Shown: positions 27,605 through 39,305 of the stretch, one piece after another
Numbering within the stretch: position 1 is the first letter of the stretch
Layout: every line of letters starts with the position of its first letter
Made by a program: the position numbers and the translations under genes
The notes under the pieces: model-generated
What the model was told of the DNA's origin: nothing
Database searches by the model: none
What the model saw: the letters and a program-made list of their open reading frames with translations, nothing else
Assembly: GCA_006508105.1 (NCBI GenBank)
Contig: QKPP01000020.1
Span: 1,610-49,541 of the forward strand
From: Myxococcales bacterium FL481
GTDB lineage: Bacteria; Myxococcota_A; Polyangia; Nannocystales; Nannocystaceae
Length of the DNA stretch: 47,932 nucleotides
Direction of reading: 5' to 3'

Positions 27605-29128
<1,524 letters not shown>

Positions 29129-30866: not shown

Positions 30867-31523
30867 CTACGCCGAGGCCAGCACTCGCGTACGCAGCAAC
30901 CGCTTGACCGTGTGCATGCGACTTTTCACCGTTCCCGTCGGAACGCCCATCTCGTGCGAGATGTCGACCAGCTTGTGCTCATCCCAGTAGAAAAATCGCG
31001 TGGTTCGTTGCAGTTCCACCGGCAATCGCCCGAGTTCGCGGAGCAAACGCGAGGCCCGCTCCTGGGCGAGCATGTCTTCGCGAGGATCCGGCGATGCGGG
31101 ATCGGGTTCGGTGAGCAGCGGCGCTTTGCGTCGACGCACCTCGTTGCGTCGCAGATGAGACAGCAAGACTTTGCGTGCGATGCCAAACAGGTAGGCACGA
31201 AACGCGACCGCGGTAGGCACCTGCTCTCGACGCTCGACGCTCGCGAGCATGGTCTGCTGCACCAGATCATCCGCCTCGTGCGGCATGCGTCGCCGAAAAT
31301 AGCGACGAAGCGCCTCGACGTGGCGAGCGAACAAGACGCCCCCCGCTTTGTGATCCCCCGCTCGCCAGGCATAGAGCAAGGTCTCGTCCGCGACGGACGA
31401 ATCGCGCCGAAGGTCGAGCTCGTTCGCCGCCGAGGGTCCGGCGTGCGGTCGGTGCGACACCGCGTCGGCCTGATCGAGACGATGCAGCTGCGCGCTAGCG
31501 ATATCGGTAGAGGGGGAGGTCAT
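30867..31523 (-). CDS. ECF-type RNA polymerase sigma factor
   Basis: 218 residues. The ATG at 31523 has an AAGGAG ribosome binding site six bases upstream, which fixes the start and gives a 29-bp overlap with the DUF934 gene. After a polar N-terminus comes region 2 (LFARHVEALRRYFRRRMPHEADDLVQQTML) and then region 4 (LPVELQRTTRFFYWDEHKLVDISHEMGVPTGTVKSRMHTV), the sigma-70 helix-turn-helix. There is no region 3, as in ECF factors. No anti-sigma gene is adjacent. Its position as the last gene of a sulfate-assimilation run suggests co-expression with sulfur metabolism; its regulon cannot be read from the sequence. Confidence 0.93.
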   Translation of the reverse strand: MTSPSTDIASAQLHRLDQADAVSHRPHAGPSAANELDLRRDSSVADETLLYAWRAGDHKAGGVLFARHVEALRRYFRRRMPHEADDLVQQTMLASVERREQVPTAVAFRAYLFGIARKVLLSHLRRNEVRRRKAPLLTEPDPASPDPREDMLAQERASRLLRELGRLPVELQRTTRFFYWDEHKLVDISHEMGVPTGTVKSRMHTVKRLLRTRVLASA

Positions 31524-32007
31524 CGTCGGCTCCTTGGTAGCAAACGGTGAACGCTTGGAGCGCTCGCAACGCTGCTTGGAGGCGGGCGGGAGACTCCAAC
31601 TCAAACGCGTTGAATCCCACCCGCTTCATGTAAAACACCTGGTCGGGATGCACCGCGCCGCATGCCCGCATTTCGCCCTCGAATCCGAGGCGCGAGCGCA
31701 GGAGCCTCGCCAGGGTAAACAGCCGGCCGTCGCCGAACCGCTCGATGTCGACCGCGATCAGGTCGAGCCGCGCCACGTCGTCCGCCAGTTCCGCTGGATC
31801 GAGGTGCGCGGGGACACGGATCCCCACCGGCTGGTCACGAGAGATCAGTGCGTCGCGCTCTCGCTGCCAACGCGCCATGCTGACGATCGCGGGCTCGGTC
31901 TCGGGGATGGCCGCCTCGTCGGCGACATGGACCCAGTCATCGGCAGTGATGACCCCGTTGCGAATGATCGACCGCGAAGAATCGCGCGGGATAGAAGAAT
32001 CACTCAT
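31495..32007 (-). CDS. DUF934 family protein (sulfur-assimilation associated)
   Basis: 170 residues. DUF934 proteins sit beside cysI, cysH and related genes in many proteobacteria and are thought to help sulfite reduction or its electron supply; the biochemical role is not settled. Family-like segments are GVRVPAHLDP (here GIRVPAHLDP), IAVDIERFGDGRLFTLARLLRSRLGFEGEMRACG, and DQVFYMKRVGFNAFEL. The start overlaps the cobA stop by ATGA, and the 3' end overlaps the sigma-factor start. Confidence 0.9.
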   Translation of the reverse strand: MSDSSIPRDSSRSIIRNGVITADDWVHVADEAAIPETEPAIVSMARWQRERDALISRDQPVGIRVPAHLDPAELADDVARLDLIAVDIERFGDGRLFTLARLLRSRLGFEGEMRACGAVHPDQVFYMKRVGFNAFELESPARLQAALRALQAFTVCYQGADDDLPLYRYR

Positions 32008-32801
32008 GCTCGTACCTCGGCTTGAAACGCGGCTGGGTAGCCAGCGTGCTCACGAACTGGCGCCACGAAGGCGGCCAAACGCCGTACATCGACGACCGCC
32101 CCCACGACGATGGTGGCCGGAGGCCGCACCTCGGCGGCCCGCGACCGGATATTCGACAGTGTCCCCACGACGACCCGCTCGTTGTCGCGACTCGCCGCCT
32201 CGATCACCGCGACCGGCGTTTCGACCGCGCGCCCGTGTGCGACGAGCTGCGTGACGATGTCCTCGAGATGAGCCACCCCCATCAAGAACACTGCCGTGCC
32301 CACGCGCGAGGCGGCCAGCCAATCGATGCCGTCTCCAACCCCAGACGCGGCCTCGTGTCCTGAGAACACGGCGAATGACGACGATAGACCGCGCATCGTC
32401 ACGGGAATGCCGGCCAGTGCCGGCGCAGCCACGCTCGCCGAAATGCCGGGCACGACCTCGACCGCCACCCCGGCTGCGGCAGCGCTCAAGAGCTCCTCGC
32501 CGCCCCGGCCGAAGACGTACGGATCCCCGCCCTTGAGCCGGACCACGGTGCGCCCGGCTCGAGCGAGAGAGACAATGAGCTCGTGAATCGAGGCCTGCGT
32601 GGCATCGGCGTCGCGTCTGGTCGTCTTCCCGACGAACACACGCTCCACCGTGGCAGGAATTAGCTCCAGCACCTCGTCGGTGACCAAGCGATCGAAGAGC
32701 ACGACGTCCGCACCTTGGATCGCTCGCAACGCGCGGATCGTGAGCAGATCGGCTGCCCCGGGCCCTGCCCCGACGAGGATCAGCTTGCCGCGGCGGCTCA
32801 T
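32004..32801 (-). CDS. cobA: Uroporphyrinogen-III C-methyltransferase
   Basis: A SAM-dependent methyltransferase that starts siroheme synthesis, 265 residues. Siroheme is the cofactor of sulfite reductase (cysI nearby), so its place in a sulfur operon makes sense. Visible: LVGAGPGAADLLTIRAL at the N-terminus, VVLFDRLV, VRLKGGDPYVFGRGGEE, VVPGISASVAAPALAGIPVT and TAVFLMGV. It is a single-domain SUMT without the CysG dehydrogenase/ferrochelatase part. ATGA overlaps on both sides (with cysN and DUF934). Confidence 0.95.
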   Translation of the reverse strand: MSRRGKLILVGAGPGAADLLTIRALRAIQGADVVLFDRLVTDEVLELIPATVERVFVGKTTRRDADATQASIHELIVSLARAGRTVVRLKGGDPYVFGRGGEELLSAAAAGVAVEVVPGISASVAAPALAGIPVTMRGLSSSFAVFSGHEAASGVGDGIDWLAASRVGTAVFLMGVAHLEDIVTQLVAHGRAVETPVAVIEAASRDNERVVVGTLSNIRSRAAEVRPPATIVVGAVVDVRRLAAFVAPVREHAGYPAAFQAEVRA

Positions 32802-34474
32802 CGTCGCAGCTCCTCGAGGTCGAGCACCTGCTGGGCGACGAGATCGACATCAGCTGCGCGCGTTCGGACACGGAAGCCGTGGTCACCATCATCAACTTGC
32901 GTGGGTGAACCGGCCGCCACTTCGACTCGAACCACCCCCGCCGGCAGCGACTCCACGTCGGAGGTCACGGCAGCGATGAGTAGTTCCCCCGCCGTGGCGC
33001 GTTCGAGCCGCGCGCGAGTCGGGTCCGCAACCAGAGTCGTTGTGACCCCGGCCGTGAATGCCCGACGCCCCAGCGCCAAGGCCAAGGCCCGCGCGAGCTC
33101 GATGTCCCCCGAACTGACGACGTAGACCGGAGCGGTCGCGGCCGTTTGCTCGGTGGGTGCTTCGGCCGGCCGTGCGTCGAGCATACCCGCGGCGACCGTG
33201 CGATTGGTGTGGGGATCGATCAAAATGAAGCTACCGGTGCCTCGATTGACGTCGTACCCGTCGAACACGACCTCGTCGTACGTGCTGATCCGTACGCGGC
33301 CGATCGCGTTGGTTTCTAGCGTCGGCGTCGCGTAGTGCTCGAGCGTTTCAACGTCGACCCCGTGCACCAGCGACATCGCGGTGGTCCGGGTCGTGCGAGT
33401 CGTCTGCTTGAGCAAGTATTCCCGGGACATGTCGAGCGACTCCTCGTCCATCCACACCACGGTTGCCTCGAGGTCGCGGCTCGTGTTCGGCGTCGCACTC
33501 GGGTGCACGAGCGTGTCGCCCCGGCTGATGTCGATCTCATCCTCTAGAACCACCGTTACAGACAGCGGAGCGGCCGCACGCTCGAGCGGCCCGTCGTATG
33601 TGACGATCTCTTTGACCCGCGATCGCTCCCCCGAGGGACGCACCACGAGTTCGTCGCCAACACTCACCTCTCCTGAAGCCACAACGCCGCAGTATCCGCG
33701 AAAGTCCAGGTTCGGTCGCGCGACGTACTGCACGGGGAACCGCAACTCGGTCGAGACCGCATGCTTGGGCAGCGGGATCGTCTCGAGCAGCTCGAGCACG
33801 CTTGGACCGGCGTACCACGACATCTTCTCGCTACGCGCCACGACGTTGTCGCCACGCAACGCGCTGGCCGGTACGGCGACGACTTCGTCGCTGTCGCTGT
33901 ACCCTAGCTCGCGCCAGAACCGGCGAAAGTCGTCGTAGATGCGATCGAACACCGTTTGTGAGTACTCGACCAGATCCATTTTGTTGATGACGACCAGCAG
34001 CTTGGGCACGCGTAGCAGATGGGCGATAAGCGTGTGCCGCATAGACTGGGAACGCAGCCCGTGTCGAGCATCCACCAAGATGAGCCCCAAGTCGGCCGTG
34101 GATGCGCCTGTGGCCATATTGCGTGTGTACTGCCGGTGCCCGGGCGTATCGGCAATAATGAATTTGCGCCGCCGGGTCGAAAAGTAGCGATACGCGACGT
34201 CGATGGTGATGCCTTGCTCTCGCTCGGCCTTGAGCCCGTCGGTGAGCAGTGCCCAATCGATTTCCTCATCCTGCCCACGGGCCTTCGAGCGCCGGCGAAT
34301 TGCTTCGAAATGATCCTCGTACAAGTTGTTGGAGTCATGGAGCAAACGCCCGATCAGCGTTGACTTCCCGTCGTCGACGCTCCCGGCAGTGAAGAAACGG
34401 AGCAATTCGGTCTCGCGGGACGACCCAGAGGGCGAGGGAGGACCGGAAGGGGATGGTTCCAAGGTGGCTTGCAT
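32798..34474 (-). CDS. cysN: Sulfate adenylyltransferase large subunit with extra C-terminal domain
   Basis: 558 residues. CysN is the GTPase that drives ATP sulfurylase (CysD) to make APS. G-motifs: G31 to S38 P-loop (GSVDDGKS), DTPGH (residues 109-113) and NKMD (164-167), followed by EF-Tu-like barrels. About 110 residues from residue 445 onward go beyond the usual CysN end. They resemble a CysC (APS kinase) fold in length and in the C-terminal helix, but lack the GxxGxGKS P-loop, so this may be a degenerate CysC fused to CysN. It is the first intact gene after the leader and the decayed cysH/cysD. Confidence 0.92.
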   Translation of the reverse strand: MQATLEPSPSGPPSPSGSSRETELLRFFTAGSVDDGKSTLIGRLLHDSNNLYEDHFEAIRRRSKARGQDEEIDWALLTDGLKAEREQGITIDVAYRYFSTRRRKFIIADTPGHRQYTRNMATGASTADLGLILVDARHGLRSQSMRHTLIAHLLRVPKLLVVINKMDLVEYSQTVFDRIYDDFRRFWRELGYSDSDEVVAVPASALRGDNVVARSEKMSWYAGPSVLELLETIPLPKHAVSTELRFPVQYVARPNLDFRGYCGVVASGEVSVGDELVVRPSGERSRVKEIVTYDGPLERAAAPLSVTVVLEDEIDISRGDTLVHPSATPNTSRDLEATVVWMDEESLDMSREYLLKQTTRTTRTTAMSLVHGVDVETLEHYATPTLETNAIGRVRISTYDEVVFDGYDVNRGTGSFILIDPHTNRTVAAGMLDARPAEAPTEQTAATAPVYVVSSGDIELARALALALGRRAFTAGVTTTLVADPTRARLERATAGELLIAAVTSDVESLPAGVVRVEVAAGSPTQVDDGDHGFRVRTRAADVDLVAQQVLDLEELRR

Positions 34475-34520
34475 GTTCTAGTTCGCTTCGAGGTTGGGGG
34501 TCGAAACACGCCATCGACGG

Positions 34521-34790
34521 CTAGCGGTAGTCCTCACGCTGCTGATGTCGCATCGTGTCATCGTCGACGGCTGGCGTCGCGCGTCGAGACGTCTGCGCAT
34601 TCGCCAGCTCTGCGAGGAAGCACGGGACGACCGTCGTTGCGGACGACTCGGTTGCGCCTTTCCGTATCGACAACGTCGGGCTGGTGCGCGGCGTCCATCG
34701 GGACCGGCGGGGACTTTGACGGATGAAGTCATTGCTCTCGGGCTCGAGTGGGCCATGGTGAGAACGGGCAGGAGCGACAGCTTGCATGGT
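34521..34790 (-). pseudogene. cysD: Remnant of cysD (sulfate adenylyltransferase small subunit)
   Basis: The frame ending at 34521, 46 bp before cysN, has a C-terminus that lines up with the end of CysD: ATESSATTV against the family's AV.S.ATTL, then AQTSRRATPAVDDD and a terminal M...QREDYR against TSERQ.RVID.D..SME.KK.EGYF. Just upstream, PLEPESNDFIRQ resembles the N-terminal LE.ES..IIRE of CysD. The PP-loop region and most of the roughly 300-residue body are missing, so at most a doubly truncated remnant is left. Matches are partial and made by eye; a random frame is the alternative. Confidence 0.4.
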
Positions 34791-34807
34791 GATGTTGTTG
34801 GGTGAGG

Positions 34808-35210
34808 TCAAAACCTGGAGCGCGACGAAGCGATCGAACACGGCAGATGGCACTCGAGGTCTTCGTGCGACGCCCACCGCCGACGGCCTGAACGAGCGTC
34901 GTCGCCGAGTGCTACCATTCGGGTGCAAGCGGCGCAGCCCAAGCTGGGAACGCCGGCGTCGGCAAGCCGGTGCCACCACGCCGATGCCTCGTCCGGGCAG
35001 AGACTGCAAGCGGCGCGAGCCTGCGATCCACCCCATGGTTCCGGTCAACGCTGGTCGCGGGGGCTCGACGTCGAGACCGAGCGGCGACACGAACCCCAGG
35101 TCGCCGCCGGCGGTACCGTGGACCCACGCGAGCAGTTCGCGCGCGCGGGCGGAAGCAAGATTGCCGCCGATAAGAAGGGGATCGGCGATGTCTAGTGGGA
35201 CGGGAACCAT
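34808..35210 (-). pseudogene. cysH: Remnant of cysH (APS/PAPS reductase), frameshifted and internally deleted
   Basis: One minus-strand frame from the ATG at 35210 gives an N-terminal piece like CysH (ARELLAWVHGTAGGDLGFVS, about 35155-35090) and then WIAGSRRLQS, matching the family's WITGLRREQS. A different frame, ending in TGA at 34808-34810, carries an unmistakable C-terminal piece: GVPSLGCAACTRMV, then GDDARSGRRRW and ECHL, matching GYPSIGCAPCTRAV...GED.RAGRWWW...ECGLH of [4Fe-4S] APS reductases. About 100 residues of the middle are missing and the halves are out of frame. Position just after the poly-Cys leader and before cysD/cysN fits a former cysHDN operon. Assembly collapse is an alternative to true decay. 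Confidence 0.6.
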
Positions 35211-35286
35211 AGCGGTCACACGCGTGTTCGACGGGCGAAGTGCTGGCGGGCAAACAGTCCGCCCGCGCAACGCCTTAAACGCGAAA

Positions 35287-35312
35287 GGCCTTCCCTGGCG
35301 TGAAGGAAGGCC
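35287..35312 (-). terminator. Terminator-like hairpin of the cysteine leader
   Basis: A perfect 8-bp inverted repeat, GGCCTTCC (35287-35294) and GGAAGGCC (35305-35312), with a 10-nt loop. On the minus-strand transcript it is followed by UUUCGCGUUU, a weak U-rich tail. It begins 30 nt after the stop codon of the poly-Cys ORF. The 5' arm region UUCCUUC (35308-35302) can instead pair with GGAGGAA at 35360-35354 inside the leader ORF, an antiterminator that would exclude the hairpin. It could also act as terminator for read-through from cysI. Confidence 0.6.
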
Positions 35313-35342
35313 CTTGCTTGGTGGAGATTCCGGGGATTCTCG

Positions 35343-35420
35343 CTAGAAGAGCATTCCTCCTGCTGGACAGCAGACACAACAACAGCAACAACAACACGCC
35401 GCGTGGACTGCCGCCGGCAT
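35343..35420 (-). CDS. Poly-cysteine leader peptide (putative cysteine attenuator)
   Basis: A 25-codon ORF from the ATG at 35420 to TAG at 35343. Residues 1-8 are MPAAVHAA; codons 9-18 (35396-35367) are seven Cys, one Val and two Cys; the tail is PAGGMLF. Nine of ten consecutive codons for the rarest amino acid are most unlikely by chance in a conserved position. The downstream hairpin, competing pairing and cysH-D-N-cobA context follow the pattern of leader-peptide attenuators: a ribosome stalled on Cys codons would leave GGAGGAA free to form the antiterminator. A GTG at 35459 would extend the ORF to 38 codons. A weak GAAG lies about nine bases upstream of the ATG. Confidence 0.7.
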   Translation of the reverse strand: MPAAVHAACCCCCCCVCCPAGGMLF

Positions 35421-35690
35421 GCGAAGCTTCGGTTGGGTCGCGCTCAACAGCACGGGCACAAGCTAGCACCCGGTTTTGCGCAACGACAAGCAAAAACTGC
35501 CGAGAAAAATCACCGCCTCTCGCGGCGACGAAGCCTGCAGCGTCCGTGTTTCGACCTCGTCACCCGGTGGTCCAGCGCGGCACGCTTGCTTGCCGTCGTT
35601 CTCGCGGCGAGCGCAGCGCCCCTCCGCCTCCATCGCCCCCCAGCGATCCGCGACGCCCCAAAAACCGGACGGTTGCGGCGCTAGGCGGGA

Positions 35691-37346
35691 TCAGTCGGCG
35701 TACAGCCGGGTTTTGAACGGGTCGAGCCCGACGCGGCGGACGAAGTCCAAGAACCGCTCTTCCGACGAATCCCGCCCCTCCAAGTAGACTCTCATAATCG
35801 CGTCGATGGCCCCGACAATCTCGTCGCGCGAGAAGGCCCGGCCGACGATCTTCCCAATGCTCGCCCCGTCCTCCGCAGAGCCACCCAGCGTGACTTGGTA
35901 GTACTCTTCCCCGGCCCGATCGACGCCCAAAATGCCGATGTTGCCCACATGATGGTGGCCGCAAGCGTTCACACAGCCCGACATTTTGAGGCTTACGTCG
36001 CCAAGATCGTGCAAGTAGTCGTAGTCGTCGAAGTGCCGCGAGATGGCCTCAGATACCGGAATTGAGCGCGTGCTCGCCAAGTTGCAGTAGTCCAGACCGG
36101 GGCAGCAGATGATGTCGGTGAGCCGACCGACGTTGCCCTCGCCGAGCCCCACTTTTTGGAGCTCGGCGTGCAGATCCGCCAATCGCAGGGTCGGCACGTG
36201 GGGCAGCACCAGGTTTTGACCGTACGTCGCCACGATGCGGCCGAAGCTGTGGGCGTCGGCGAGGTCGGCCACCGCGTCCATCTGCTGGTGGGTGATGTCG
36301 CCAGGCGGTCGACCGTGTGGCTTGAGCGAGACCACCACCGCGCTGTATCCGGGCTGACGGTGTGGCAAGACATTGGCACGCAGCCAGGCGCTGAGTTGGC
36401 GTGACCCCGTCAGCGCGGCTCGGTCCAACCACGCTTGTGCATCGGGGAGGACCTCGTAGTCCGGCGGCGCAAAGAAAGCCGCCACGCGCTCGTACTCGGC
36501 TTGGGTCAGCTCCAAACCGGTGTCGGCGATGAGCTTCCACTCCTCCTCCACCAGTTCTGCGAAGCGCTCGATCCCCAGCGAGCCCACCAAGATCTTGATC
36601 CTCGCCTTGTACTTGTTGTCCCGCCGGCCGAACCGGTTGTACACGCGAAGAATCGCCTCGAGATACGCCAACAAGTCGCGCTGAGGGACGAAGTCTCGCA
36701 CAACCTGGCCAATCCGTGGCGTGCGACCCAGTCCGCCCCCGACCCAGACCTCAAACCCGGGCTCCCCTTGCTCGAGCCGCAAACGCAGCCCGATATCGTG
36801 CACCTCGACCGCCGCACGATCGTGTTTCGCCCCCGTCACCGCGATTTTGAACTTGCGGGGAAGAAACGCGAACTCGGGGTGAAACGTCGACCACTGGCGG
36901 ATGATCTCGCAGTAGGCCCGAGGATCGGCGAACTCGTCCGGCGCGATGCCGGCCAACGGATCCGCCGTCACGTTGCGAATGCAGTTGCCACTGGTCTGAA
37001 TGGCGTGCATCTGCACCTGCGCGAGTTCGCCGAGCAGGTCTGGAACCTGCTCGAGCGCCACCCAGTTGAACTGGATGTTCTGCCGAGTACTAAAGTGCCC
37101 GTACCCGCGGTCGTACTTGCGGGCCACGTGAGCGAGCGTTCGCAGCTGCCGTGAGGAGAGCGCTCCGTACGGAATCGCCACCCGCAGCATGTACGCGTGG
37201 AGCTGGAGGTACAGACCGTTTTGAAGCCGGAGCGGCCGAAACTCGTCCTCGGTCAGCTCGCCGGCCATGCGGCGCTGAGTCTGGTCGCGGAACTGAGCAA
37301 CGCGCTCTTCGACGAGGGTTTGATCGTAGCGGTCGTAGGCGTACAT
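35691..37346 (-). CDS. cysI: Sulfite reductase, hemoprotein (CysI-type)
   Basis: 551 residues; reduces sulfite to sulfide with a coupled siroheme and [4Fe-4S] cluster. Cluster ligands fit Cys415-x5-Cys421 (CCPGLDYC) and Cys458-x3-Cys462 (SGCVNACG), followed by HHHVGNIGI. The two ferredoxin-like half-domains are visible: GYGHFSTRQNIQFNW and TSGNCIRN in the first, PPGDITHQQM and TYGQNLVLPH in the second. Basic residues of the sulfite pocket (Arg and Lys in FLPRKFKIAVTG) are present. It starts 23 bp after the DUF2849 gene, a common pairing. No CysJ flavoprotein is nearby, so a ferredoxin or other donor is likely. Confidence 0.95.
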   Translation of the reverse strand: MYAYDRYDQTLVEERVAQFRDQTQRRMAGELTEDEFRPLRLQNGLYLQLHAYMLRVAIPYGALSSRQLRTLAHVARKYDRGYGHFSTRQNIQFNWVALEQVPDLLGELAQVQMHAIQTSGNCIRNVTADPLAGIAPDEFADPRAYCEIIRQWSTFHPEFAFLPRKFKIAVTGAKHDRAAVEVHDIGLRLRLEQGEPGFEVWVGGGLGRTPRIGQVVRDFVPQRDLLAYLEAILRVYNRFGRRDNKYKARIKILVGSLGIERFAELVEEEWKLIADTGLELTQAEYERVAAFFAPPDYEVLPDAQAWLDRAALTGSRQLSAWLRANVLPHRQPGYSAVVVSLKPHGRPPGDITHQQMDAVADLADAHSFGRIVATYGQNLVLPHVPTLRLADLHAELQKVGLGEGNVGRLTDIICCPGLDYCNLASTRSIPVSEAISRHFDDYDYLHDLGDVSLKMSGCVNACGHHHVGNIGILGVDRAGEEYYQVTLGGSAEDGASIGKIVGRAFSRDEIVGAIDAIMRVYLEGRDSSEERFLDFVRRVGLDPFKTRLYAD

Positions 37347-37369
37347 GGCGGCTGACTTTACCTAGGGAG

Positions 37370-37681
37370 CTAACGACCCTCTGGCGCCCCGCCGACTGGC
37401 GCTGCGCTGTGGCCGGTGGTGGGGCCGGTGGCCCGGATTTTCTCTCGGAGCGACGCGGCCATGATAGCGCCATCAGCCTCGACGACGACCTCGATCGCGT
37501 ACGGGCCGCATACACTGCCCTCGTCGCGCACCGCGGCCGCCAGCGCCTGTTCGAGCCCGCTGGCATCGTCCGCGGCGAACACCAGGCCCTCTTGGAGCCG
37601 TCGCGACCACACCCCTCCCGAGGCGAGGTAGACCGAGCGCCCATCCGCGACGCTGTTGGCGGTGATCATCTTGTTGTTCAT
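37370..37681 (-). CDS. DUF2849 family protein (sulfite reductase associated)
   Basis: 103 residues, immediately upstream of cysI. DUF2849 proteins are small, found next to cysI and cysG in alpha- and other proteobacteria, and have no settled function. Visible family-like segments: MITANSVADGRSVYL, GVWSRRLQEGLVF and YAIEVVVEADG. The C-terminal 20 residues are low-complexity. The start has little choice other than the ATG at 37681. Confidence 0.85.
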   Translation of the reverse strand: MNNKMITANSVADGRSVYLASGGVWSRRLQEGLVFAADDASGLEQALAAAVRDEGSVCGPYAIEVVVEADGAIMAASLREKIRATGPTTGHSAAPVGGAPEGR

Positions 37682-37988
37682 CGATTCTACGTCTCTACGT
37701 CTCTAAGTCGGCAAACACGTTGGCCTGGGACCAAGCGAGGGTCCCGGGACCCAGTTCAGTTCGGCGGCCTCTCGGCTGGAACTCCGGCGCATCCGCCCAA
37801 TCCGGGCATCCTTTTGTCCCGCGCCCAAGGCTCGTTGCGTGAACCAGAAAAAGGTTCGCGACACTCGTCGATCTTTTTTCTGCCCGCGACGGGCCGGCCG
37901 CCAGCCCTTTGCTCGCCCCGGGCTTTCAGGCTACGTTCCGCCGTAGTTTTGCCCCAGCCGCTCGGCGTACGAGCCGCCCCGACCGAAG
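37682..37988. promoter_or_regulatory. Divergent cys control region with two hairpins
   Basis: A 307-bp gap between DUF2849-cysI (minus) and cysM (plus). It holds a 9-bp stem with 7-nt loop at 37724-37748 (one G-T pair), which overlaps the perfect 14-bp palindrome GGGTCCCGGGACCC at 37739-37752. A second 8-bp stem lies at 37838-37845/37853-37860 around an AGAAAAA loop. Two direct copies of TCTCTACG-like sequence occur at about 37685-37705 next to the DUF2849 start. These could be operators or transcript structures. I see no match to SAM or other known riboswitches and no poly-Cys ORF. Confidence 0.45.
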
Positions 37989-38945
37989 ATGGAACCGATG
38001 ATCGCCGACAGGCCGCCCGTTTCTCCGACTGACCTGGTCGCGGAGACCGACCCCGTTCTCGCGCGCATCGGCAATACGCCGATGGTTCGGCTCAACCGGG
38101 TGCTGCCCGACGATGTGCCGCGGCAAGTCGAGATCTGGGCGAAGCTCGAATGGTTCAATCCCGGCGGCTCGGTCAAAGACCGAGCCGCACTGTCGATGAT
38201 CCGAGAGGCAGAAGCCGCCGGTCGGCTGGAACCGGGCATGACCATCCTCGATGCCTCCTCGGGCAATACCGGCATCGCGCTGGCCATGGTCGCAGCCCGC
38301 CGGGGCTATCGGTTGGTGTTGTGCTTGCCCGAAAACGCGAATGCGGACCGGAAGCAACGACTGCGGGCGTATGGCGCCGAGATCGTGCTGACCTCGCCGT
38401 TCGAGGGGAGCGACGGCGCCATCATCAAAGCCCGAGAGCTCGCGCATGCGCACCCCGACTACCTGTATCTCGACCAATACTCCAATCCAGCGAACTGGCG
38501 GGCCCACTTGCGCACGACGGGCCCGGAGATTTGGCGCGACACGAACGGTCAGATCACGCATTTCGTAGCTTGCCTCGGCACCTCCGGAACCTTCGTGGGC
38601 ACGAGCCGCTACCTCAAGTCGCGCGATGCGGGGGTGCGTTGCGTCAGCGTCCAGCCGGATGATGCGATGCACGGTCTCGAGGGCCTCAAGCACATGGAAA
38701 GCGCGCTCGTTCCGGACATCTACGATCCAGAGCTCGCCGACGCGGACCTCGGAGCCCCCACCGAAACATCGATCAACTACGCACGGCGCCTCGGAGACAG
38801 CGACGGGTTGCTCGCCGGAATCTCCGCGGGTGCGGCCGTTTGGGGCGCGGTTGAGGTCGCCCGGCGGATCGAGCGAGGGATCATCGTCACGGTGTTCCCG
38901 GACGGCGCCGATCGGTACTTCTCCGACCGACACGTGTGGGGCTAG
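37989..38945 (+). CDS. cysM: Cysteine synthase (O-acetylserine sulfhydrylase), CysM/CysK family
   Basis: 318 residues; a PLP enzyme joining sulfide (or thiosulfate) with an activated serine to make cysteine, the final step after CysI. The PLP lysine is Lys63 in NPGGSVKDR. The substrate loop is SSGNTGIALA (CysK/CysM type), the glycine-rich phosphate-binding loop is GTSGTFVG, and a C-terminal serine is expected in the GISAGAA region. The length and the WRAHLRTTGPEIW-type segment favour CysM over CysK, but cystathionine-beta-synthase-like relatives cannot be excluded. Divergent from cysI, with shared upstream DNA. Confidence 0.92.
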   Translation: MEPMIADRPPVSPTDLVAETDPVLARIGNTPMVRLNRVLPDDVPRQVEIWAKLEWFNPGGSVKDRAALSMIREAEAAGRLEPGMTILDASSGNTGIALAMVAARRGYRLVLCLPENANADRKQRLRAYGAEIVLTSPFEGSDGAIIKARELAHAHPDYLYLDQYSNPANWRAHLRTTGPEIWRDTNGQITHFVACLGTSGTFVGTSRYLKSRDAGVRCVSVQPDDAMHGLEGLKHMESALVPDIYDPELADADLGAPTETSINYARRLGDSDGLLAGISAGAAVWGAVEVARRIERGIIVTVFPDGADRYFSDRHVWG

Positions 38946-39305
38946 CCAGCCCGTCCCGTCGCCCCCTCCACCGGTCTCCGCTGCGGCGAGATGCCGACCT
39001 CGCGATGGTCATCAACCGGCCCGACGGGCCGCGCCCACGGCATTCGCGTGCTTCGCGCAGAGCGAACCACGGTCTGCGTCGACCGTTGCGGCACGGCATC
39101 GGGAGCCTGATTCGGTAGATCCGCGCATCGCGGCGGGGTAAACGAGACAATATCCGAGCAAACGCTTCATCACCGGACACGCGACGCCAGCGACCGGCTA
39201 TGATTCTCGCGGACGGGTACGCCCGGCGAAGACAAGGCAACCACACCAAGCAAGCATTGAGTGTCGCAGCACCGAACGGCGCCGCGACAACGCGAAGAGA
39301 AGAGC
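38946..39305. other. 360-bp region upstream of the RRM gene
   Basis: No supported ORF. Long leaders are common in front of RNA-binding-protein genes, but I can point to no specific structure here. Confidence 0.35.

Follow-up and report, generated by a model that had tools for sequence, protein, structure and literature searches.

A putative cysteine-codon attenuator before sulfate-assimilation genes of a myxobacterium and its covarying counterparts in Acidobacteriota

Upstream of sulfate-assimilation genes of Myxococcales bacterium FL481, a short open reading frame (ORF) with nine cysteine codons in ten is followed by two mutually exclusive RNA pairings, one of them a terminator-like hairpin, and the same layout, with covarying stems, is found in another phylum. 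The sequence of this leader, which lies in the window (the whole analysed stretch of 47,932 nucleotides), suggests that the cysH-cysD-cysN-cobA-DUF934 unit is probably subject to cysteine-responsive, ribosome-mediated transcription attenuation, a reading that is favoured for the window by a covarying family of acidobacterial leaders and by tandem leaders in a genome of its own class. On a wider scale, we lean towards the view that a Cys-codon leader with an intrinsic terminator before sulfate-assimilation genes is a widespread and undescribed form of sulfur control, which would be the rule at cysD in one acidobacterial order, sporadic in the window's class (where it would have arisen or arrived), and built unlike the mycobacterial poly-Cys system. 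To our knowledge, the sensing of cysteine and sulfur is little studied in both Myxococcota and Acidobacteriota, and leader codons that name the amino acid provide a direct, testable hypothesis.

The cysteine-codon leader and its alternative stems

Read from the ATG at 35420, the leader ORF (MPAAVHAACCCCCCCVCCPAGGMLF) comprises 25 codons on the minus strand (35420-35343) and terminates with a TAG (35345-35343). Its ten regulatory codons (35396-35367) are nine Cys codons (TGT/TGC) and one Val codon, and the stop lies 30 nt ahead of the 8-bp core of a hairpin; in all these respects the sequence agrees with the preliminary description, which had proposed a cysteine attenuator at this place. Two GTG codons farther upstream in the same frame (35459 and 35453) lengthen the ORF to 38 and 36 codons, the longest form spanning 35459-35343, and no clear Shine-Dalgarno sequence was seen before the ATG. 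The other frames across the Cys tract encode poly-Leu and poly-Asn; the overlapping poly-Leu frame (72 aa, from TTG 35493) was rejected as a leader because its stop falls beyond the terminator.

A promoter-like sequence recognised by eye on the minus strand (35489-35460, with TTGTCG at 35489-35484, 18 nt, and TG-C-TAGCTT at 35465-35460) places the -10-like TAGCTT 6 nt ahead of the GTG at 35453. Transcription from this sequence would start near that GTG, possibly giving a leaderless message, and a transcript from there to the T-run would measure about 170 nt. A consensus scan of 31000-39000 called no promoter, and Rfam riboswitch and leader families (SAM, T-box and others) had no match up to E=1 between window positions 31000 and 39500. 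Several leaderless leader peptides are described for Streptomyces lividans in the accessible part of PMC8079986.

The core of the hairpin, GGCCUUCC (35312-35305) with GGAAGGCC (35294-35287), is as perfect as had been claimed, and the best fold lengthens it to 13+2 pairs with -22.8 kcal/mol (35317-35281, minus strand). The hairpin is strong and its spacing is right, with 56 nt from the stop to the T-run, but the U-tract amounts to just TTTCGCGTTT and is weak, and a consensus terminator scan did not call the hairpin. A separate terminator-like hairpin with a T-run is located nearer to sir (35531-35501, minus strand; 8 pairs, TTTTT tail, -13.6 kcal/mol). The DUF2849-sir transcript from upstream possibly ends here, and the presence of this second hairpin makes it less likely that the hairpin at 35317-35281 is a mere end of the sir transcript.

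The 5' arm of the terminator is at the same time the 3' strand of a putative antiterminator. The pairing of GGAGGAA (35360-35354) with UUCCUUC (35308-35302), which had been said to exclude the hairpin, does so and proved to be longer than the seven pairs first noticed: GCUCUU (35352-35347) pairs with AAGGGC (35315-35310), and further pairs bring the helix (35360-35345 with 35317-35302) to a total of 16 pairs and -21.8 kcal/mol when folded without the 3' arm of the terminator. Its 5' strand (GGAGGAA U GCUCUU CU; 35360-35345, minus strand) is part of the leader ORF; it follows the Cys codons and ends at the stop, so that a ribosome positioned there would cover it. The minimum-energy fold of the full leader still holds the terminator, as does that of each of the four simulated stalls; the antiterminator can therefore prevail only by kinetics, through being made first, and in classical attenuators the antiterminator likewise wins by earlier synthesis. 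When the upstream strand was shuffled, 31 of 2000 sequences reached at least 16 cross-pairs, as did 27 of 2590 other segments of the window; the gain in energy was equalled in 218 shuffles and 161 segments, and the total energy in 137 shuffles and 885 segments. The significance of the antiterminator is moderate by pair count and weak by energy, and in view of these chance counts the evidence from the single sequence is suggestive only.

From this anatomy we infer a transcript, its translation, its termination and a cysteine response. Transcription would start near 35455, perhaps leaderless at the GTG. With Cys-tRNA scarce, the ribosome would stall on the Cys codons (35396-35367) and leave 35360-35345 free to pair with the newly made 35317-35302; the terminator would thereby be blocked, and RNA polymerase would read on into cysH'-cysD'-cysN-cobA-DUF934. 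With ample cysteine, the ribosome at the stop (35345) would cover the antiterminator strand, the hairpin 35317-35281 would form, and transcription would end. This stalling logic, which had been put forward in the preliminary description, fits the anatomy of the leader as well as the layout and spacing of the acidobacterial family and of the tandem pair in the genome G045 (see below). The present-day function, however, is less certain than had been implied, because the cysH and cysD directly downstream look decayed.

Counterparts in Acidobacteriota and in the window's class

A detector that required a short ORF with at least three Cys in eight codons, together with a T-tailed hairpin at 40-75 nt past the stop, was run on 80 cysN loci from a wide range of phyla and recovered only two sites (L011 and L068), both located just before cysD in Acidobacteriota of the Terriglobia lineage. 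In the order to which the genome of L011 belongs, 38 of 95 genomes have a cysD match, and an intrinsic terminator follows a Cys-rich leader at 26 of the best 30 loci (L305-L334); two of the acidobacterial cysD genes were checked, and both pass the NCBIfam cut-offs. The distance from the stop to the T-run, for which 30-110 nt had been allowed, ranges from 55 to 88 nt with a median of 59 nt, close to the 56 nt of the window. The pair of leader and terminator was not recorded at L308, L316, L324 and L330, of which L324 nonetheless shows both on inspection. Rfam had no match in the eight acidobacterial loci that were checked.

In these leaders, the strand coding for the stretch of peptide behind the cysteines (UUCUGGCG) pairs with the 5' arm of the terminator (CGCCAGAA). 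The covariation alignment contains 20 of the 26 loci (L305, L306, L312, L328, L333 and L334 were left out). In the terminator, 98.2% of its cells pair, with three doubly changed pairs; in the antiterminator, 81.9% of the cells pair, with five doubly changed pairs in 13 cells. U-A is present in 8 and C-G in 7 of the 20 sequences at one column pair of the antiterminator, and the outermost pair of this helix fails in 12 of the 20. Both helices have a covariation score above that of every one of 500 shuffles, with lower scores in slid controls, and the pair-type count of the antiterminator does not stand above the shuffles (255 of 500 equally high). A pair of helices that exclude each other, both covarying and both placed between Cys codons and cysD, agrees with the prediction of attenuation. 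The acidobacterial leaders share with the window the Cys codons, the antiterminator strand inside the ORF, the stop, a terminator (in the window a terminator-like hairpin) and the spacing, whereas they differ in sequence and phylum, in their covarying conservation, in a strong T-tract and in the intact cysD behind them. Because the covarying design is present at over two dozen acidobacterial loci, these would allow the question to be tested should the window's copy turn out to be decaying.

In the window's own phylum, we applied a combined detector (a short ORF with at least four Cys in eight codons; a hairpin of -14 kcal/mol or lower with at least five T in nine, 40-76 nt past the stop) to 313 overlapping loci, or 3.8 million strand-bases. 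It found three distinct sites, which do not represent a genome-wide rate since the loci had been picked for sulfur genes or TGY tracts: the window, a site within a sir coding region, and the leader of cys genes in G045, a genome of the window's class. G045 possesses two tandem Cys leaders (L335, 2600-3075, minus strand; also L102) before cobA-type and sir-like genes, and the gene behind the leaders passes the cobA cut-off. The leader MPVLTDLRPVDHGERVSFEMRRNCSCRCPGGGLLPSARRPA (NCSCRCP) is followed 76 nt on by a T8-tailed hairpin of -19.4 kcal/mol, and the leader MNSSTHDTRQLGAPVADARPGEVCRCSCPCPGAGPPGTGSGQRAKEQDRT (CRCSCPC) 63 nt on by a T8-tailed hairpin of -26.5 kcal/mol; by eye, stretches of the ORFs are complementary to the 5' arms of the terminators (GGGGGCC/GGCCCCC and GCGGGUC/GGCCCGC). 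The class, the Cys codons, the complementary strand and a terminator-like hairpin are shared with the window, in contrast to the alternating order of the Cys codons (CSCRC, CRCSCPC), the tandem arrangement, the T8 tails and the different gene order.

Matches to sir are present in 193 of 317 genomes, about half of which are covered by the inspected loci. Our census comprised 98 sir loci, 96 of them distinct (30 + 28 new + 40) and many with at most 1.5 kb of upstream sequence; among the remaining distinct loci, whose flanks are often short, no further Cys attenuator could be credited. Cysteine attenuators thus appear to be sporadic in the window's class.

Several other matches were not accepted as leaders. 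A poly-Cys ORF of Caldilineaceae (L050) is antisense to a 487-aa frame, and detector matches at L122, L185, L346, L363, L368, L370, L380, L382, L417 and L425, matches at loose settings (L084, L091, L093, L108) and a second ORF of the window with MCPCC were treated as chance or as lying inside genes. At a Granulicella locus (L065), three Cys codons and a T-run are present with no clear hairpin.

Downstream genes and the locus in relatives

On the minus strand, the leader is preceded by DUF2849 (37681-37370) and by a gene for a sir-like sulfite/nitrite reductase (37346-35691; Pfam NIR_SIR, under every NCBIfam cut-off). It is followed by a cysH remnant (35210-34850), a cysD remnant (34803-34521), an intact cysN of 558 aa for the large subunit of sulfate adenylyltransferase (34474-32798; TIGR02034, 566.5 bits, cut-off 336.1), cobA for the uroporphyrinogen-III C-methyltransferase of siroheme synthesis (32801-32004; TIGR01469, 268.6 bits, cut-off 185) and a gene for a DUF934 protein (32007-31495). 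A cysteine-synthase gene (37989-38945) has the opposite orientation. The downstream gene set had been given as cysH/cysD remnants, cysN and cobA on the same strand: for cysN and cobA this is borne out by the NCBIfam cut-offs, which both pass, and cysH and cysD look like decayed pieces. The CysH-like and CysD-like pieces occupy three different frames and are interrupted by a stop and by deletions. The cysH remnant is shortened and has a frame change (piece 34966-34850), its N-terminal part being named by eye only; the cysD remnant has an in-frame stop, a frame change and deletions (pieces 34782-34660 and 34658-34527). Neither Pfam nor NCBIfam had a match for the ORFs in the remnant region, and PF01507 had none at the cysD remnant. 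In the remnant comparison, for which composition statistics were switched off, unrelated Arg/Ala-rich frames scored equally well, and for this reason the calls lean on motif order and position as well as on E-values.

Two further observations concern the coding regions of the window. The last 119 residues of CysN (32801-33157) occupy the place of the APS kinase in other CysN, yet belong to no Pfam family; they are perhaps a degenerate kinase, the usual P-loop being absent by eye. Elsewhere, a 507-aa ORF (27605-29128) has a long repeat rich in Asp residues close to its N-terminus.

The decay of the first two downstream genes means that the element is possibly partly out of use, and untranslated RNA in the decayed cysH and cysD could cut off cysN. 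Attenuation may have operated here only in the past, in a once functional unit that is now decaying while sulfate activation proper is encoded by genes at other places in the genome. We regard this special case of attenuation as possible but doubtful. It is supported by the resemblance of cysH and cysD to remnants and by the presence, in the draft genome (322 contigs), of a CysD-type gene on contig C104, a PAPS-reductase-like gene on C49 and a second CysN on C292. On the other hand, the leader, its stems, cysN, cobA and DUF934 are intact, although a poly-Cys ORF no longer in use ought to decay, and siroheme synthesis by cobA is still useful to the intact sir. The cysD-like genes on C104 (130-813) and C49 (3-353) are two different genes, each cut by the end of its contig, and represent either paralogues or mixed strains.

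The leader and the gene order of the window are not conserved at the family level. The nearest genomes compared are those of the family (29 genomes), with no genome of the same genus among the family search matches. Eleven family members have a sir that is 61-66% identical to that of the window, and in the fetched loci (L115-L125) it is preceded by DUF2849 in 10 of 11 cases and directly followed by DUF934 in 10 of 11. Scanning of these loci, from 600 nt before to 400 nt after the operon, revealed no poly-Cys leader at any of the eleven, and weak Cys-containing ORFs without the attenuator layout at four (L116, L117, L118, L125). In the window, the leader, cysH', cysD', cysN and cobA are interposed between sir and DUF934 (31495-37681), which are adjacent in these relatives. 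The comparison of cysN loci comprised 27 from the family (one being the second cysN of the window's genome) and another 60 from the class, and in 79 of these a cysD is preceded by 400 nt of sequence or more; within 600 nt upstream of the 87 genes, there was neither a poly-Cys run nor a terminator at the right spacing, and five weak Cys-containing ORFs were seen (L181, L202, L232, L236, L248). Consequently, neither conserved Cys codons nor covarying stems corresponding to the window locus were found at the 87 cysN and 11 sir loci. A search for CysH in the class found the window's own genome only and is uninformative, because the query from C49 lies below the NCBIfam cut-offs and the threshold was strict; cysH labels made with this query at the loci of relatives are incomplete.

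The main rival to attenuation is that the tract is a chance TTG/TGT trinucleotide repeat between sulfur genes and the hairpin an ordinary, perhaps two-way, terminator unrelated to it. The leader is indeed not kept in relatives, the other frames read poly-Leu and poly-Asn, and tracts of TGY repeated seven times (TGYx7) are present in 24 of the 29 family genomes and in 129 of 377 genomes of the phylum. Nevertheless, we consider this explanation unlikely. The tract of the window is the only TGYx7 site in the draft genome (6.4 Mb, 93% complete) and sits between annotated genes, the longest other frame over it having 146 codons, whereas at 16 of the 18 TGYx7 loci of the family (L279-L296) the tract is overlapped by a different open frame 290 or more codons long. 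None of these 18 tracts has a terminator at attenuator spacing, and they were rejected as leaders on both grounds. In addition, all changes within the run of the window but one are synonymous for Cys, and the stop-to-T spacing as well as the position of the antiterminator strand agree with the acidobacterial family.

Relation to known attenuators

In the trp and his attenuators of E. coli, a leader peptide rich in the end product is combined with an antiterminator that competes with a terminator, and the stop lies about 60 nt before the T-run. The window shares with them the product-rich leader (nine Cys codons in ten, with cysN, cobA and DUF934 downstream), the opposition of an antiterminator to a terminator-like hairpin and a similar stop-to-T spacing, and differs in the amino acid, the host and a weaker U-tract. 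Membership of the window leader in the classical attenuators is likely. The attenuation reading is weakened by the poor U-tract, the non-conservation and the decayed first genes, gains support from independent families in which the geometry recurs, and is plausible on the whole.

Short poly-Cys ORFs before sulfur genes, including those of the acnes species and cbs of B. longum, were described by Seliverstov et al. 2005 (PMC1262725), the accessible part of which gives no conserved terminator hairpins at those leaders, and mycobacterial control is presented as translation attenuation in the accessible part of a 2026 article (PMC13236596), which cites Canestrari et al. 2020 (doi 10.1111/mmi.14498). 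As far as these parts of the two papers go, the mycobacterial parallel that had been drawn for the window stands in function and fails in mechanism. A run of Cys codons in a short ORF before sulfur-assimilation genes, and possibly a leaderless start, are common to both; in contrast to the mycobacterial type, for which control of translation is described and no conserved terminator hairpin was found, the window has an antiterminator and, after the ORF and ahead of the genes, a terminator-like, T-tailed hairpin. It is highly improbable that the window follows the mycobacterial scheme, in which a stall would open a downstream ribosome-binding site without any involvement of termination: such control is described for mycobacterial cysteine genes (PMC13236596, as far as accessible), a leaderless start is possible in the window too, and the start region of cysH' (35210) pairs with the 5' part of the leader in the full-length fold, but the T-tailed hairpin intervenes, ending about 70 nt before the start of cysH', and the gene behind it is broken. 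Besides transcription attenuation, an added effect of the window leader on downstream translation is possible.

None of the literature matches listed reports a cysteine attenuator from myxobacteria or from Acidobacteria; for the latter, the accessible part of a 2010 paper states that almost no predicted attenuator had an associated function (PMC2965389). A predicted Cys transcription attenuator with a terminator stem is the uORFC-8-2 motif upstream of cysS in Rhodobacterales, as presented in the accessible part of PMC8632094. According to the same source, this motif has two Cys codons, belongs to alphaproteobacteria and controls the Cys-tRNA synthetase rather than sulfate assimilation, in all of which it is unlike the window; Cys codons in an upstream ORF, followed by a terminator stem or, in the window, a terminator-like one, are features that the two have in common.
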